64,000 nucleotides of DNA from Selenomonas sp. oral taxon 920. GTDB taxonomy: Bacteria > Bacillota > Negativicutes > Selenomonadales > Selenomonadaceae. The position numbers and the translations under genes were made by a program. The stretch spans positions 843,501-907,500 of the forward strand of contig NZ_CP017042.1 of assembly GCF_001717585.1 (NCBI RefSeq), read 5' to 3'. Shown here one piece after another: positions 7,272 to 17,608 of the stretch. Within the stretch, counting starts at the first letter, position 1. Each line of letters opens with the position of its first letter. A model generated the notes under the pieces. It was not told where the DNA came from, did no database searches, and saw only the letters and a list, made by a program, of their open reading frames with translations.

Positions 7272-9287
7272 ATGAAGATGTGGAATAAGAAGTTTCTTGC
7301 CGTGGCAGTCGCATTTTCGGCACTTACGGGGCAGGTTTATGCGGCGGAGACTGCGCATACGGGAGGAGAAGCAGATGAGCTGATGCCCACATACTCTCTT
7401 GGCGAGGTTGTTGTGACGGCGACACGAACGAAGAAAAAGGATATTGATGTGCCCGCAGCGACGACGGTCATCACGGCGAAGGAAATCAAGGACAGCGGGG
7501 CAGCGAATGCGTCAGATGTGCTATCGAAGGTCGACGGATTCGTCTATAAATCCTTCGGCCCCAACGGTGCGGCGATGGGAGCAATGACGAACGAAGTCAA
7601 TGTGCGCGGCCTCAAGGGCGGTGCACTTGTACTCATGAACGGCAATCCGATCGCATGGCGCGGCAAATACAATCTCGATCAGATTCCGGCGAGTCAGATC
7701 GAGCGCGTCGAGATTGTCAAGGGCGGCGCCTCTGTGCTCTACGGAAGCGAGGCGATGAGCGGCGTTGTCAACATCATCACGAAGAAAAAGCATGCCAATG
7801 AGGTGCACGCGGGCTTCGGCAACTACGGACAGCGCAGCTACGGTGTAAGTGTCGGGGATGAACGCTTTGGGTTCTACTACAACTACGATAAGTTTGGGCG
7901 CAGGGACGGCGTAAGCTACACGGAGTATGCACAGGCTAGATTCCACGGGCAGACGCGTACAGATGTTTACGATATTCTCAAGCAGAATATGGGTGTGACT
8001 TATCATGTGAATCCGCGCCTTGATTTCCAGATTGGCTACTATGAGACGGAGGGGAAATATAAGCGAACCGTTACCGCCGTGGACAATACGCATGCCCCCA
8101 CGCGTGCCCAGCATATCCACATCGGAGCGCCGTACAATCAGCGTAAATATGAAACGAAGCAGTATATTACGCAGCTCAACTATCGTGATACGGATTGGAA
8201 GGGGAGCCTTTTCTTCAATACCGGAACGCTGGAATTTATGGGACCGAGCTACTTTCACAGCAGAACAGGGGCAAAGACACCGAATGGCCGGTATCACACA
8301 CGTGAAAAGAATACGACGTACGGCATCGACCTGCAGCGGACGTGGCAGGTGAATCCGAAGGCAACTGCGATCCTTGGATTTGATCTCGTACATGAGGTCT
8401 ATGCGGAACTCGCCACGCCGGTGAGTGCTGATCATGCACGCTATACACGCAATAACTGGGGGGTATTCGGTCAATGGGAGCAGCGCTTTAATGAGAAAAA
8501 CACGGGTATTTTCGGGCTGCGTGAAACATGGACGACGGGTGCCGCGCGCAGTCAGAACTATCACAATCTCAGTGCCTCGGGACAGTGGCTGCACAAGCTC
8601 AACGCCGAGAACAGCCTTTATTTGAACATCAGTCAATCCTTTGTCATGCCGACGTTTTCCCAGATGTACCCCAACAATGATCGGCAGATGGCTGCGCCGA
8701 ACCTGCGCCCGCAGAAGGGCATTAGCTATGAGATCGGGTGGAAGCAGAAGCATGGGGGACATTCATGGAAGGCCGCGCTTTTCCATATGCGCGTTGCGGA
8801 CAATATCACAGCAAAAGTAGATCGCAGGGGCGGACGTGCGGAATATCAGTATACGAACGAGGACTTCCGCAACATCGGACTGGAGCTCTCCAACGAGATC
8901 CAGGGCACGCACGGATTCTCCTACAACTGGGGGCTGACATGGCAGAACCCGCAGACGAAGAGCAATAAGAAGATGCTCGGATGGGAGCGCACCTTCGGCA
9001 GGATTCAGCTTACGGGCGGTGTCACCTACAAAAAGGATAAATGGACATCGTCGCTCTCGGCCTCCTATCTCGCCGATCGTGTGCAGTCGCCGTCCGATGC
9101 GCCGGCATATCGCTCGAAGCCGTATCTGCTCACAACGTGGAATACGACCTATGCGCCGAATGAGAACAGTGAACTCAGCCTCCGTATCGACAACGTGCTC
9201 AATCGTAATGACACCACGATGCACAGTGGATCGGCGTATTACGTTGCGCCGATCAACTATCTCCTCAGTTACAGCTGCAAGTTCTAG
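7272..9287 (+). CDS. TonB-dependent outer-membrane receptor
   Basis: A 671-residue receptor with a signal peptide (cleavage probably after QVYA), a TonB-box-like stretch GEVVVTATR, a plug domain with NEVNVRGLKGGALVLMNGNP and IERVEIVKGGASVLYGSEA, then a long beta-barrel ending in aromatic-rich strands (final residues YSCKF; Phe at the C-terminus is typical of outer-membrane barrels). AGAGGAG at 7258-7264 fits ATG 7272 (7-nt spacing) better than ATG 7266. It resembles the receptor at 15623-17608 along its whole length. With the ABC importer and TonB it completes an outer-to-inner-membrane uptake route. Confidence 0.93.
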   Translation: MKMWNKKFLAVAVAFSALTGQVYAAETAHTGGEADELMPTYSLGEVVVTATRTKKKDIDVPAATTVITAKEIKDSGAANASDVLSKVDGFVYKSFGPNGAAMGAMTNEVNVRGLKGGALVLMNGNPIAWRGKYNLDQIPASQIERVEIVKGGASVLYGSEAMSGVVNIITKKKHANEVHAGFGNYGQRSYGVSVGDERFGFYYNYDKFGRRDGVSYTEYAQARFHGQTRTDVYDILKQNMGVTYHVNPRLDFQIGYYETEGKYKRTVTAVDNTHAPTRAQHIHIGAPYNQRKYETKQYITQLNYRDTDWKGSLFFNTGTLEFMGPSYFHSRTGAKTPNGRYHTREKNTTYGIDLQRTWQVNPKATAILGFDLVHEVYAELATPVSADHARYTRNNWGVFGQWEQRFNEKNTGIFGLRETWTTGAARSQNYHNLSASGQWLHKLNAENSLYLNISQSFVMPTFSQMYPNNDRQMAAPNLRPQKGISYEIGWKQKHGGHSWKAALFHMRVADNITAKVDRRGGRAEYQYTNEDFRNIGLELSNEIQGTHGFSYNWGLTWQNPQTKSNKKMLGWERTFGRIQLTGGVTYKKDKWTSSLSASYLADRVQSPSDAPAYRSKPYLLTTWNTTYAPNENSELSLRIDNVLNRNDTTMHSGSAYYVAPINYLLSYSCKF

Positions 9288-9295
9288 GGGCATTT

Positions 9296-10264
9296 ATGCT
9301 TACACTGACGAATCTCTCCAATGCTGACTGCGATGTGGAGAACGTTCTCGAAAACGATACGGATGCCATTCCTGCCATCATGCGGGAGCACGAACTTGAC
9401 GGCATTGAGTTCATGATCTGCGGACCGTGGGACCGTGTCATGCATCCTCCGCAATACATTAAGGGGGTGCACCTCCTGTTTTGGCCGTGCTGGCTGGATT
9501 TCTGGCGCGGCAACCGCGCGGCACTCATGGAGGAGTTCGGAAGCGAGGAGAATATCCGTGCCTACTACGGCTCTTTGCACGTCGGCGATTGGATCGCTGC
9601 GTGGAAGGAGAACCTGCGGCAGGCGGCAGAATGTCAGCCGCAGTATCTCGTCCTGCACGTCGCGCACAATCGCACATCCGAGATGTATAGGCGTGCATTT
9701 GCCGCGACGAATGAGGATGTCATTCGTGCGACGATCGAACTTGTGAATGAAATCGCGTGCGAAATCCCTGAGGGATGCAGACTCCTCTTTGAAAACCTCT
9801 GGTGGCCGGGGTTGACTTTTTGTCAGCCGCATCTGGCTGCCATGCTCTTGGAGAAGGTCAATTATCCCGCTGTTGGCTTTATGCTCGATACGGGGCATCT
9901 GATGAATACGAATCTTGATCTGCGGAGCGAAGCAGACGGCGCGGCGTATGTGACGAAGATCTATCAGAATCTCGGCGAGGTTGGGAAGCACGTCTATGGC
10001 TTACATCTGCACCGATCGCTTTCCGGTTCGTATGTACGGGAGATGATGCACCGCCATGCAGGCTCGTGCGATCCTCTGGGCTGGCAGACGGCGATGGACT
10101 ATGTCGTGCGTGTGGATCGACATGAGCCGTTTCGGACAGAGGCGGCACGCCGTATCCTTGATGCTGTGCAGCCGGACTATCTCGTGCACGAGTTTTTGCA
10201 GCGTTCGCGTACGGATTGGGAGCAGAAAATTCGTATACAGCAGTGTGCGCTCGGTATTTTATAA
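9296..10264 (+). CDS. Xylose isomerase-like TIM-barrel protein
   Basis: A 322-residue protein of the sugar phosphate isomerase / AP endonuclease 2 fold (PF01261). Likely metal ligands are visible in order: LHVAH near residue 122, FENLWW near 164, LDTGH near 200 and YGLHLH near 235. It begins 8 nt after the receptor stop and precedes a strong terminator, so it is the last gene of the uptake operon. The family includes isomerases, epimerases and metal-dependent enzymes acting on unusual small molecules, so the exact reaction is not predictable. Its position suggests it modifies the imported ligand or a piece released from it; that is inference. Confidence 0.72.
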   Translation: MLTLTNLSNADCDVENVLENDTDAIPAIMREHELDGIEFMICGPWDRVMHPPQYIKGVHLLFWPCWLDFWRGNRAALMEEFGSEENIRAYYGSLHVGDWIAAWKENLRQAAECQPQYLVLHVAHNRTSEMYRRAFAATNEDVIRATIELVNEIACEIPEGCRLLFENLWWPGLTFCQPHLAAMLLEKVNYPAVGFMLDTGHLMNTNLDLRSEADGAAYVTKIYQNLGEVGKHVYGLHLHRSLSGSYVREMMHRHAGSCDPLGWQTAMDYVVRVDRHEPFRTEAARRILDAVQPDYLVHEFLQRSRTDWEQKIRIQQCALGIL

Positions 10265-12166: not shown

Positions 12167-12540
12167 CAAAATTTATGAGAGAAGAGAGCTTTCAAGGCAG
12201 CATCGAAGCATTCTTGCGGAGTCTTATAGTCCAGAATCTTGCGTGGGAGCGTATTGATCCAATCCTCCACATGCTGTAATTCTTCCACCGCATAAGTTTG
12301 TCATATCCGTCCCCTTTTTCCAGACGGTGGTGTCAAGTTCCCAGTTTCCAAAGGTCCTGTACTCGGAACGATCGGGGCATGGCAGGCAATACTCTCACCG
12401 AGCGACCTGCCGTAGTTCTCTTTGTGATTCCGACGGTGTACCTTTTGTGGTAGAATGTGCTTGGGACATACAGAACCTCCTGGGATGTTTGGGCAGAGGT
12501 ATTTTACGGCTTGATTCTGTGTATTCTGTCTTTTGATGTC
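12167..12540 (-). pseudogene. IS30-family transposase remnant
   Basis: Read on the minus strand, 12300-12167 encodes an IS30 C-terminus (EELQHVEDWINTLPRKILDY, then KTPQECFDAALKALFSHKF and a stop). Minus-strand sequence from about 12365 encodes the catalytic-core segment FGNWELDTTVWKKGTD in a different frame, and weaker similarity continues to about 12540 through further frame changes. The two parts join near 12300 with most of the DDE domain missing, so the gene has an internal deletion and frameshifts. It cannot make an active transposase. The outer limits are approximate and no inverted repeats were identified. Confidence 0.75.
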
Positions 12541-12625: not shown

Positions 12626-12648
12626 ATTTTAGATAAAAATTTCATAGA

Positions 12649-14494: not shown

Positions 14495-15502
14495 ATGAGC
14501 AGATGGTTGCGTCTGGATCTTGACTGTCTGCGTGCGGTAGGCCTGTTTTGCATATTTATGCTTCTATTTGCTGTGGCAGGCTGTGCCACTCCAGAAAGAC
14601 AGGATAAGACCTCTTATAGTGTCACCGATGCAGAAGGGACCGATGTTCCTATTTTGCATAAGCCGCAGCGGATTCTGACGATTGGTGCGAGTAGCGATGA
14701 GATGATGCTTGGTCTTGTGGAGCCAGAACGTATGGCTGCAATTAATGTGTCTCTTGCCAATACGGAGGATTCAAATATTCCATGGGTACGTGAGAGAATT
14801 TCGAATATTATTTCTCGCAATCCCTCTGTGGAGGAGATTGCAGCCTTACAGCCGGATCTCGTAGCTGTTCCGGAATGGCTGCCGAAGGAGAATGTCGATG
14901 CCATACGAGAATTGAATATACCTGTTGTTGTATTTAAATCGGCGGCGACAATAGGCGATATTCATGAAAATATTCGTCTCTTTGCAGCGGCAGTTGGTGA
15001 ACCAGAGCGTGGGGAGATACTCATCGAGAAAATGGAAGAAAAACTCGCTCAGATCCATAAAAAAATTGCCTTAGTGCCTGAGGAGAAGAAGTATAAGAGC
15101 ATTGCACTTATTTCTATTATGCCAAACTATGGCGGTGCAGGTTCTACCTTTGATGAACTCTGCCGTTATACAGATTCCGTTAATGCAAAGGCTGCGGCGG
15201 GGAACCATATGGGGCAGGAGATGACAAAAGAACAGCTCGTTGCTGCGAACCCTGACTATCTCTTCTTCCCCAGCCATGAGAACGAAAGTTCGCGGGAAGA
15301 AAATTTTGGCAAGCAGTATTTGGAGGATCCCTCTCTTGCACAGATGACTGCTATACAGGAACGAAGGATTGGGCATCCATGGGCGAGGTATACTTACAAT
15401 ATCTCTCAGGATATTGTGTTCGGCATACAGGAGACTGCATGGATTCTTTATGGCGATGAATTTCAACAGTCGCGGCAGGAGTTTTTGACTGCTGTGGAGT
15501 AG
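14495..15502 (+). CDS. ABC transporter substrate-binding lipoprotein (BtuF/FepB-like), second copy
   Basis: A 335-residue periplasmic binding protein with a hydrophobic lipoprotein signal ending AVAGC and the PF01497 fold (YSVTDAEGTDVPILHKPQRI, LQPDLVAVPEW). AGGAG lies 9 nt before ATG 14495. Its C-terminus is nearly the same as the partial binding protein at 1-187 (53/61), and it is more distant from the one at 3640-4623. It lies downstream of the IS-interrupted cobalamin riboswitch, so its ancestral control was probably by cobalamin. No ATPase or permease follows; it may use the FecCD-type transporter at 4643-6525. Base composition is more AT-rich than in region 1. Confidence 0.88.
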   Translation: MSRWLRLDLDCLRAVGLFCIFMLLFAVAGCATPERQDKTSYSVTDAEGTDVPILHKPQRILTIGASSDEMMLGLVEPERMAAINVSLANTEDSNIPWVRERISNIISRNPSVEEIAALQPDLVAVPEWLPKENVDAIRELNIPVVVFKSAATIGDIHENIRLFAAAVGEPERGEILIEKMEEKLAQIHKKIALVPEEKKYKSIALISIMPNYGGAGSTFDELCRYTDSVNAKAAAGNHMGQEMTKEQLVAANPDYLFFPSHENESSREENFGKQYLEDPSLAQMTAIQERRIGHPWARYTYNISQDIVFGIQETAWILYGDEFQQSRQEFLTAVE

Positions 15503-15622
15503 GAGGTCCCTTTGGATGAATTTGAGAGGTAGGCAAGGGACACCCTGCATGAGAATGTTGATGTTTGTACAAAAGTTTTGGTATGTTCATAATCATAGCT
15601 TCGCAGAAAGGCGGATATACAT

Positions 15623-17608
15623 ATGATCTTTTGGAATAGAAAATCACTGTTGACGGCAATTCTTGTCATGCTTTCTGCAGCTTCGACGGATGTATTTGCA
15701 GCTGAGGCAATGCATGACGAAGATGGTGCGAAAGAGGAGATGTCGACGCATTTTTTAGAGGAGGCCATCGTAACGGCGACGCGTTCGCAGAAAAAGGCTG
15801 TTGATGTGCCTGCATCGACGACGGTTATCACAGCGCAGGAGATTAAAGATAGCGGAGCTGCAAGTGCGGCCGCTGTCTTGCAGAAGGTCAACGGTTTTGC
15901 CTATAAGTCCTTTGGACCGAATGGTTCGTCCATCGGCTCGACGAATGAGCTTAATGTGCGCGGCTTTCGAGGTGGAATGCTCGTACTAATGAACGGAAAT
16001 CCGATTTCTTGGCGAGGAAAATACAATCTGGATGCAATTCCCTCGTCCTATATTGAGCGTATTGAAATCGTCAAGGGAAGTGGTTCTGTTCTCTATGGCA
16101 GTGAGGCAGTGAGCGGCGTCGTCAATATCATCACCAAGAAGATCCCTGAAAACGAGGTGTATGCTGGCTTTGGAAATTACGGGCAGAGGGAATATGGCGT
16201 AAGCGCAGGAGATGGTCGTCTCGGCATCTACTACAACTACAGCAAGTGGGGCCGCAGGGACGGCGCTTCGTATACAAATGTAAATGCGAGGAATTTCAAA
16301 GGTGAAACACGCACGGATATTCACAACATTGAAAAGCAGAGCGCAGGGCTCAGCTATCAGATTAATCCGCGGTTCAATTTCCTGTTGAACTACTATGAGA
16401 CAGAGGATACGTATCATCGCACTATTTCGAGTGTGCGGAGCAGTCTGCAGGGGCTGCGTGTCGGGGAGCCGTATTACGTGCGCAAATATGCGGTAAAGCG
16501 CTATACGACGCAGCTCAACTACAGCGACCGCGATTGGCAGAGCAGGTTCTATTTCAACACAGGGACAGCAGAGACATTCGGCCCTGTCTATATTTCGGCA
16601 GTTGGCAGACGCTCACCGCAAGGACAATATCAAAAGTATGAGAAGAATATGACGTATGGCATCGATTTGCAGCGGTCATGGAGAATGAACCGGTCTGATG
16701 CGATCGTTGGTTTGAATTTTGAGCGTGAGGACTATCATGAGCTGCCAGCATATTCGACAAGTCAGGGAAAGCATTACGCGCGCAGCAACTGGGGCGTATT
16801 TGGACAGTGGGAGCAACGTTTCGATAAACGTAATACCGGGATCTTTGGGCTGCGTGAGACATGGACAACGGGGGCAGCGAAGGATCAGAACTACCATAAT
16901 CTGAGTGCATCTGCACAGTGGCTCCACAAACTTAACCACGACAGCAGTGTCTATCTGAACGTCAGTCAGTCGTTCGTTATGCCCACATTTGCGCAGATGT
17001 ATGCAGAAAATGCGAGTCAGATTCCCGCACCGAACCTTAAGCCTCAGACCGGGATCAACTATGAGTTGGGCTGGAAACGAGAGCATGACGGACATGTATG
17101 GAAAGCAGCACTCTTTCATATGCGCGTCAAGGATAAGATTACAGCGAAGTGGGCAGGGAGTGCGTACCAGTATACCAATGAGGATTTTCGCAATACGGGT
17201 GTTGAGATCTCGAATGAGATTCGGAGGGAGCGTGGGTTCTCCTACCAATGGGGACTGACGTGGCAAAATCCTGAGACAAGAAGTTCTAATAATACATTTG
17301 GATGGAACCGCGTATTTGGAAAAGTTCAGCTCACAGGAGGTGTCGTCTACAAAAAGGGGAAGTGGATGTCCGCACTCAACGGATCCTATCTGGCATCGCG
17401 TGTTAAGTCTCCGTCGAGTGCACCTGCATACCGGACAAAGCCGTATCTGCTCACTACTTGGAATACAGTCTATGCGCCGGATTCATCGAGTGAGATCAGC
17501 TTTACAATTGAAAATGTCCTCAACCGCGACGATGTGACCACGCATACAGATGCTAACTATTATGTGGCCCCTATCAGTTATATGCTGAGTTATCGATATG
17601 CATTCTAA
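15623..17608 (+). CDS. TonB-dependent outer-membrane receptor, second copy
   Basis: A 661-residue receptor with a signal peptide (cleavage after DVFA), TonB-box-like EEAIVTATR, a plug domain (NELNVRGFRGGMLVLMNGNP, IERIEIVKGSGSVLYGSEA) and a beta-barrel ending SYRYAF. It is clearly paralogous to the receptor at 7272-9287 across its length, with shared segments such as WGVFGQWEQRF and TGIFGLRETWTTGAA. Paired with the binding protein upstream (120-nt gap containing a GTCCCTT/AAGGGAC hairpin at 15506-15541), it is likely the outer-membrane step for a related ligand, formerly under cobalamin riboswitch control. Confidence 0.92.
   Translation: MIFWNRKSLLTAILVMLSAASTDVFAAEAMHDEDGAKEEMSTHFLEEAIVTATRSQKKAVDVPASTTVITAQEIKDSGAASAAAVLQKVNGFAYKSFGPNGSSIGSTNELNVRGFRGGMLVLMNGNPISWRGKYNLDAIPSSYIERIEIVKGSGSVLYGSEAVSGVVNIITKKIPENEVYAGFGNYGQREYGVSAGDGRLGIYYNYSKWGRRDGASYTNVNARNFKGETRTDIHNIEKQSAGLSYQINPRFNFLLNYYETEDTYHRTISSVRSSLQGLRVGEPYYVRKYAVKRYTTQLNYSDRDWQSRFYFNTGTAETFGPVYISAVGRRSPQGQYQKYEKNMTYGIDLQRSWRMNRSDAIVGLNFEREDYHELPAYSTSQGKHYARSNWGVFGQWEQRFDKRNTGIFGLRETWTTGAAKDQNYHNLSASAQWLHKLNHDSSVYLNVSQSFVMPTFAQMYAENASQIPAPNLKPQTGINYELGWKREHDGHVWKAALFHMRVKDKITAKWAGSAYQYTNEDFRNTGVEISNEIRRERGFSYQWGLTWQNPETRSSNNTFGWNRVFGKVQLTGGVVYKKGKWMSALNGSYLASRVKSPSSAPAYRTKPYLLTTWNTVYAPDSSSEISFTIENVLNRDDVTTHTDANYYVAPISYMLSYRYAF

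Follow-up and report, generated by a model that had tools for sequence, protein, structure and literature searches.

We analyzed a 64,000-nucleotide stretch of DNA from Selenomonas sp. oral taxon 920 (positions 843501 through 907500 of contig 1, NZ_CP017042.1, in a genome of 2.44 Mb; herein the window), which holds a gene pair for a substrate-binding lipoprotein (SBP4) and a TonB-dependent receptor (TBDR3), as well as part of a cluster that encodes a nitrogenase-like enzyme with one NifH-like (H) and two component-1-like (D and K) proteins. Sequence comparisons show that an insertion sequence now separates SBP4 and TBDR3 from the cobalamin aptamer in front of them. They make it fairly probable that SBP4 and TBDR3 are a corrinoid uptake pair and that the HDK cluster, as part of the cobalamin regulon, acts with a cobalt chelatase on corrinoids brought into the cell or on a different cobalt tetrapyrrole. 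As an uptake system the pair is unremarkable; the interest lies in the link of a nitrogenase-like enzyme to the cobalamin regulon of Negativicutes.

A Cobalamin Riboswitch Heads the HDK Cluster

The initial annotation, made from the window alone, had linked the ligand family of the pair, and indirectly the HDK system, to cobamides through a riboswitch near the pair, and had proposed a search for another one upstream of window position 1. That search was positive: one of the six cobalamin riboswitches in the genome lies at genome positions 831055 through 831247, at the head of the HDK cluster. It is followed on the same strand by a 153-residue receptor remnant, SBP1, a radical SAM protein, the BtuB-type receptor TBDR1, ChlI, ChlD, CobN, and SBP2, and the run continues through H, D, K, SBP3, an ABC ATPase, a permease, TonB, TBDR2, and a TIM-barrel protein. 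The run spans 22.7 kb and its largest gap, from the riboswitch to the first frame, is 168 nucleotides (nt); SBP2 and H are separated by 9 nt, and H-D and D-K overlap by 11 and 8 nt. All of it would form one transcript. CobN passes the cobaltochelatase cut-off of TIGR02257 (946 versus 822 bits). The receptor remnant (L014, positions 5416 through 5877) is full length at the same place in several relatives.

The part of the cluster inside the window lies on the forward strand and comprises the C-terminal portion of SBP2, whose gene directly precedes that of the NifH-like reductase (1 through 187), H (197 through 1009), D (999 through 2303), K (2296 through 3573), the substrate-binding protein SBP3 (3610 through 4623), the ABC ATPase (4652 through 5494), a FecCD-type permease (5491 through 6525), TonB (6527 through 7246), TBDR2 (7266 through 9287), and the TIM-barrel protein, a member of the AP-endonuclease-2 superfamily (9296 through 10264; PF01261, 39.5 versus 31.1 bits).

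All 14 genomes of the genus, to which oral Selenomonas and Centipeda species belong, have CobN and carry a cobalamin riboswitch at the head of the CobN-HDK cluster. In genome G006 the cluster continues from one end of the single contig to the other, and in G009 its head and HDK genes lie on different contigs; in G003 and G013 the riboswitch stands directly before CobN. The head riboswitch of the window genome, together with those of related genomes, places the HDK cluster in the cobalamin regulon. The window genome also carries a second H-D-K set (C1:1462836 through 1467126, minus strand; L045:12836 through 17126), whose D is 62% identical and which is followed by a DUF364/DUF4213 gene annotated as putative heavy-metal chelation. 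No CobN and no cobalamin riboswitch occur in the 20 kb around this second set, and the riboswitch link is therefore not valid for every member of the family. Elsewhere in the genome, another cobalamin riboswitch (C1:2133058 through 2133291, minus strand) lies upstream of the genes for methylmalonyl-CoA mutase, a B12-using enzyme (L046:3014 through 8291).

Many HDK Clusters of Other Genera Carry Corrinoid Genes

A profile of seven D sequences, applied at an E value of 1e-50, gave matches in 74 of the 300 genomes sampled from the class, in 29 genera; in a sample of the phylum, 3 of 398 genomes matched at 1e-60, all in the window's own family. One locus was examined per genus for the 28 other genera, with genes counted over the fetched stretch. 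CobN is present at 20 of the 28 loci, CbiZ at 11, CbiK at 5, and some part of a chelatase at 24; Pfam confirmed all eight CbiZ and both CbiK proteins submitted. Fifteen loci hold a cobalamin riboswitch, which in eight (G066, G067, G068, G072, G073, G085, G142, and G203) lies directly before H, at a distance of 117 to 886 nt. The riboswitch of G139 precedes the D frame as called, that of G029 heads the cluster, and the gene orders of G032 and G052 are riboswitch, CbiK, H, D, K and riboswitch, ChlI, ChlD, H, respectively. Together with the head riboswitch in the window genome, the CobN, CbiZ, and CbiK genes of these related clusters support the link to cobamides more directly than the initial annotation had drawn it. 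Directly behind the CbiK-H-D-K genes of G032 there is also a ZMP/ZTP riboswitch (L119:17258 through 17338).

An Insertion Sequence Splits the Leader before SBP4

The riboswitch that the initial annotation placed upstream of the pair is real: a full-length cobalamin aptamer (RF00174, model positions 1 through 189 of 189; 99.5 bits against a gathering score of 31.5) occupies window positions 12641 through 12819 on the forward strand. It is, however, not adjacent to SBP4, as a 1,487-bp insertion sequence that had been missed intervenes (12879 through 14365, minus strand). The element is of IS3 type, with TG...CA ends, short target copies, a transposase orfB with an integrase core (13003 through 13872, minus strand; PF00665, PF13333, and PF13683), and an orfA with a helix-turn-helix (13875 through 14264, minus strand; PF01527 at 22.7 bits, slightly below the cut-off of 24.1). 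Five further full-length copies are listed in the genome at 100% identity. Flanks were read for four of these, the fifth (L020) being unmatched by exact search, and target copies of 3 to 4 bp were found at three of the four; the window copy is flanked by the 4-bp GCGA. An aim of the element at terminators is unsupported, with no comparable hairpin seen by eye at the four other copies.

In the leader left of the element (12820 through 12878), the last features are the left arm of a terminator-like hairpin and the first GCGA copy (12875 through 12878); the second copy (14366 through 14369) is followed by the right arm and TTTTT. Removal of the element from the sequence restores TCCGGC-GAA-GCCGGA-TTTTT, a terminator-like hairpin with the point of insertion in its loop. 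A second hairpin (14397 through 14431, forward strand) resembles the terminator hairpins behind other aptamers of the genus, though its own T-run is degraded. Terminator-like hairpins occur in 18 of 22 leaders scanned, the window leader being counted without the element; the four leaders that have none are those of three weak second riboswitches and of G007. These weak riboswitches (34 to 39 bits; G004:C15:99445 through 99599, G005:C4:384060 through 384232, and G006:C1:2864428 through 2864600) precede frames of 1,690 to 2,847 residues behind a BtuB-type receptor.

Judged from the aptamer and the hairpins, the original leader would have terminated transcripts in the presence of ample adenosylcobalamin. 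The expression platform expected between an aptamer and its controlled gene is now split, which parts the aptamer from the hairpins and the genes and makes termination in response to the ligand very unlikely in front of SBP4. In the window genome the pair has therefore probably escaped control by B12. The insertion might instead be harmless, with transcripts that cross the element or a promoter that the element supplies, so that the pair would still be expressed and perhaps regulated. Both reading frames are intact, and insertion sequences often drive neighboring genes; the aptamer and the hairpins, however, are 1.5 kb apart, and the single promoter-like site between the element and SBP4 is weak (9 of 12 matches) and at chance level, and we regard this explanation as improbable. 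Before the riboswitch there is a promoter-like TTGACA-17-TATTCT (12597 through 12625, forward strand; 10 of 12 matches); promoter-like sites in the region number two against a mean of 2.9 in shuffled controls, which is no excess. Between the GNAT gene and the riboswitch, positions 12170 through 12480 look by eye like another transposase remnant.

Whether the riboswitch ever controlled SBP4 bears on the same site. A riboswitch is found behind the TIM-barrel gene in 5 of the 14 genus genomes (the window genome, G004, G005, G006, and S. felix, G011). In the latter four it precedes a BtuB-type receptor, whereas the window genome has none at that place; its riboswitch stands behind MCP and GNAT genes and is followed by the insertion and SBP4. 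This arrangement would suit a slot riboswitch whose own gene, for a BtuB-type receptor, has been lost, with SBP4 and TBDR3 brought in behind it by rearrangement and never under its control. Several observations speak for former control instead: SBP4 is preceded by a hairpin and start region similar to the expression platforms elsewhere in the genus, the leader has a usual length once the insertion is left out, and the SBP4 of S. felix also adjoins a riboswitch unit. There, the SBP4 orthologue (85%) begins 161 nt after the BtuB-type receptor that follows the riboswitch, and the region before SBP4 is homologous between the two genomes (89 of 115 positions). We consider the lost-receptor explanation rather unlikely, and retain the reading of a cobalamin leader that was split by the element.

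SBP4 and TBDR3 as a Candidate Corrinoid Uptake Pair

SBP4 (14495 through 15502, forward strand) is a class III substrate-binding lipoprotein (PF01497, 77.9 bits against a cut-off of 27.5), whose lipoprotein Cys30 is invariant in 20 of 20 aligned sequences. TBDR3 (15623 through 17608, forward strand) has the plug (PF07715, 79.7 bits) and barrel (PF00593, 101.1 bits) of a TonB-dependent receptor. SBP4 is identical to SBP2 at 230 of 321 aligned residues (72%), and our recount of the C-terminal end agrees with the 53 of 61 residues first reported; the paralogy proposed between the receptor of the pair and the one near position 7272 is borne out by 419 identities in 673 residues (62%) between TBDR3 and TBDR2. 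Comparison of SBP4 with its S. felix orthologue gives a dN of 0.080 and a dS of 0.91, values that indicate purifying selection. In the proposed uptake route, TBDR3 would bring a corrinoid, a B12-type tetrapyrrole, through the outer membrane with energy from TonB; SBP4 would bind it in the periplasmic space and, because no importer lies beside the pair, would deliver it to the FecCD-type ABC importer encoded in the neighboring cluster. The most likely role of the HDK enzyme would be to process, with the cobalt chelatase, the corrinoids taken up or a different cobalt tetrapyrrole.

A number of results weigh against this reading. SBP4 scores 29 bits with the BtuF model NF002894 (cut-off 234) and TBDR3 121.1 bits with the BtuB model TIGR01779 (cut-off 599.7), a cut-off also missed by TBDR2 (128.6 bits) and TBDR1 (219.7 bits). 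The pair's scores with heme and siderophore families are about equal to those with B12 families. The predicted structure of SBP4 (pLDDT 92) has, among the matches listed, a mixture of heme, siderophore, iron, and B12 binders, so that the fold leaves the assignment of a ligand undecided. Among the 28 loci outside the genus, 13 have no cobalamin riboswitch in the stretch fetched, which was a full 20 kb for 7 and shorter, down to 6.2 kb, for 6, and CbiZ is not among the named genes of the window's own cluster. In S. felix, a terminator-like hairpin lies in the gap between the BtuB-type receptor and the SBP4 orthologue. Finally, CbiC, one marker of the corrin pathway, is present in all 14 genus genomes, and the genus therefore probably makes corrins itself; the same finding leaves B12 auxotrophy unsupported as an explanation of the cluster.

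The similar family scores also bear on the ligand that the pair and the cluster import, which could be heme or another iron tetrapyrrole, with CobN removing the metal and the riboswitch merely coupling the system to B12 status. For SBP4 and both receptors, scores with heme families come near those with B12 families, and for TBDR2 they exceed them (133.9 bits with the hemin receptor model TIGR01785 against 128.6 with that for B12); neither TBDR2 nor TBDR3 (111.7 bits) passes the TIGR01785 cut-off of 316.85. Heme binders are among the best-matching folds, and HmuS, a relative of CobN, strips iron from heme according to the available part of PMC12583661, which keeps the heme reading alive. On the other side, CobN passes the cobaltochelatase cut-off and is accompanied by ChlI and ChlD, the corrinoid enzyme CbiZ recurs at 11 of the 28 outside loci, and cobalamin riboswitches stand directly before H in eight of the 28. 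We give heme little credence as the ligand and prefer corrinoid uptake.

Separate Histories of SBP4 and TBDR3

The initial annotation had described the pair as a paralogue, a second copy, of the cluster pair; the trees contradict a copy made as one unit. SBP4 groups with the S. felix protein, encoded behind a BtuB-type receptor, and not with SBP2 of its own genome; the two make up a clade with full support that joins somewhere near the base of the genus SBP2 sequences. TBDR3 clusters with TBDR2 of G008 and G009 (support 98/95 and 88/84 in two trees). A tree that places TBDR3 beside TBDR2 of its own genome is rejected (p-AU = 6.5e-72, for a grouping named after the first tree had been inspected), and with it, for the receptor, a recent event that would have duplicated the binding protein and receptor of the cluster together. 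As the histories of SBP4 and TBDR3 differ, the pair was assembled from parts rather than copied as a unit.

The AT-richness from which a separate origin or transfer had been suggested is present, with a G+C content of 48.0% for the pair, 55.6% for the window, and 61.7% for H-D-K; as evidence of transfer, however, it is weak. TBDR3 (49.1%) falls inside the 42 to 59% range of the 49 TonB receptors compared. SBP4 alone is compositionally odd: its G+C is 46.6% and that of its S. felix relative 48.4%, against 55 to 66% for nine SBP2-type genes of the genus and 48.5 to 65.5% for all 12 such genes.

Nature of the HDK Enzyme and the TIM-Barrel Protein

H, D, and K reach the cut-off of none of the nitrogenase-type NCBIfam models, those for DPOR, COR, and CfbCD included; H comes close to that of nifH (392.6 versus 394.35 bits). 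D and K have the features of component 1 of the nitrogenase superfamily, namely PF00148 and three cluster Cys residues per subunit. In D, Cys17, Cys42, and Cys111 are kept in 45 of 45 sequences; in K, Cys18 and Cys43 are kept in 17 of 17 and Cys101 in 16 of 17. Among solved structures, the best relatives found for D are 9d9u_A and 9fmg_A, both deposited as Nitrogenase, which may be methylthio-alkane reductase. In the printed alignments, the column that holds Cys in NifE and 9d9u_A, which we take to be a cofactor ligand, is Gly in 44 and Ser in 1 of 45 D sequences. D therefore lacks the putative cofactor Cys expected of a nitrogenase, a NifEN, or a similar protein with a metal cofactor.

D thus appears to keep the cluster site and not the cofactor site, a pattern that fits tetrapyrrole reductases such as DPOR, COR, and CfbCD, in which, to our knowledge, that cofactor Cys is also absent. 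These are two-component nitrogenase-like enzymes that act on tetrapyrroles, as described in the available part of PMC7242693; H, D, and K differ from them in reaching none of their NCBIfam cut-offs. Our guess is that H-D-K couples the reduction of a corrin or a cobalt tetrapyrrole to the insertion or removal of the metal. A more specific proposal, which we put forward tentatively and would not bet on at even terms, is that Negativicutes possess in H-D-K a new nitrogenase-like enzyme for corrinoids: in concert with CobN-ChlI-ChlD, or with CbiK, it would reduce and remetallate imported B12-like tetrapyrroles, or strip cobalt from them, so that foreign or damaged corrinoids are recycled, with the cobalamin riboswitches turning the system on when B12 is short.

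The TIM-barrel protein at 9296 has invariant His, Asp, and Glu residues, which may form a metal site. Its model (pLDDT 91) has sugar epimerases and AP endonucleases among the fold matches listed, its best sequence match is endonuclease IV (E = 0.0019), and it has no match in NCBIfam; neither fold nor sequence match decides its function. The cobamide hydrolase CbiR, according to the available part of PMC7733943, belongs to the same superfamily.

Relation to Known Systems

A close parallel is operon-2 of Dehalobacter restrictus, which has a cobalamin riboswitch, FepBCD/BtuCDE-type transporters, two CbiZ, CobN, and magnesium-chelatase-type subunits, and whose transcript rises 346-fold on corrinoid starvation (PMC4285132, available part). 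Riboswitch, transporters, CobN, and chelatase subunits are present in the window-genome cluster as well, and CbiZ, twofold in D. restrictus, is found at 11 of the 28 outside loci. The word nitrogenase, however, is absent from the main text of PMC4285132, the available part of which names no outer-membrane receptor, and the leader of operon-2 holds no insertion. In Chlorobium, a single genome has CobN and BchHID chelatase subunits along with BtuB-type import, CbiZ, and cobalamin riboswitches (PMC8620254, available part); the main text of that paper mentions no nitrogenase. The HmuS heme de-chelatase likewise is a large CobN/ChlH-type protein in an uptake operon of anaerobes (PMC12583661, available part); the HDK cluster differs in having ChlI and ChlD, a CobN above the cobaltochelatase cut-off, and cobalamin riboswitches. 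In the open-licence literature searched, including the available parts of PMC4285132, PMC8620254, PMC7242693, and PMC10418091, we found no description that links a nitrogenase-like enzyme with corrinoid uptake or the cobalamin regulon.

Dehalobacter thus already provides a corrinoid operon under riboswitch control in which CobN, chelatase subunits, and CbiZ occur together, and the added nitrogenase-like enzyme is the part for which we found no precedent. Nitrogenase-like enzymes are known for chlorophylls and F430, none for corrinoids turned up in our searches, and the removal or exchange of corrin-bound cobalt is a hard chemical problem. If the proposed role is true, a nitrogenase-like family present in about a quarter of the sampled genomes of the class would gain a metabolic place, in B12 salvage or in cobalt recycling.

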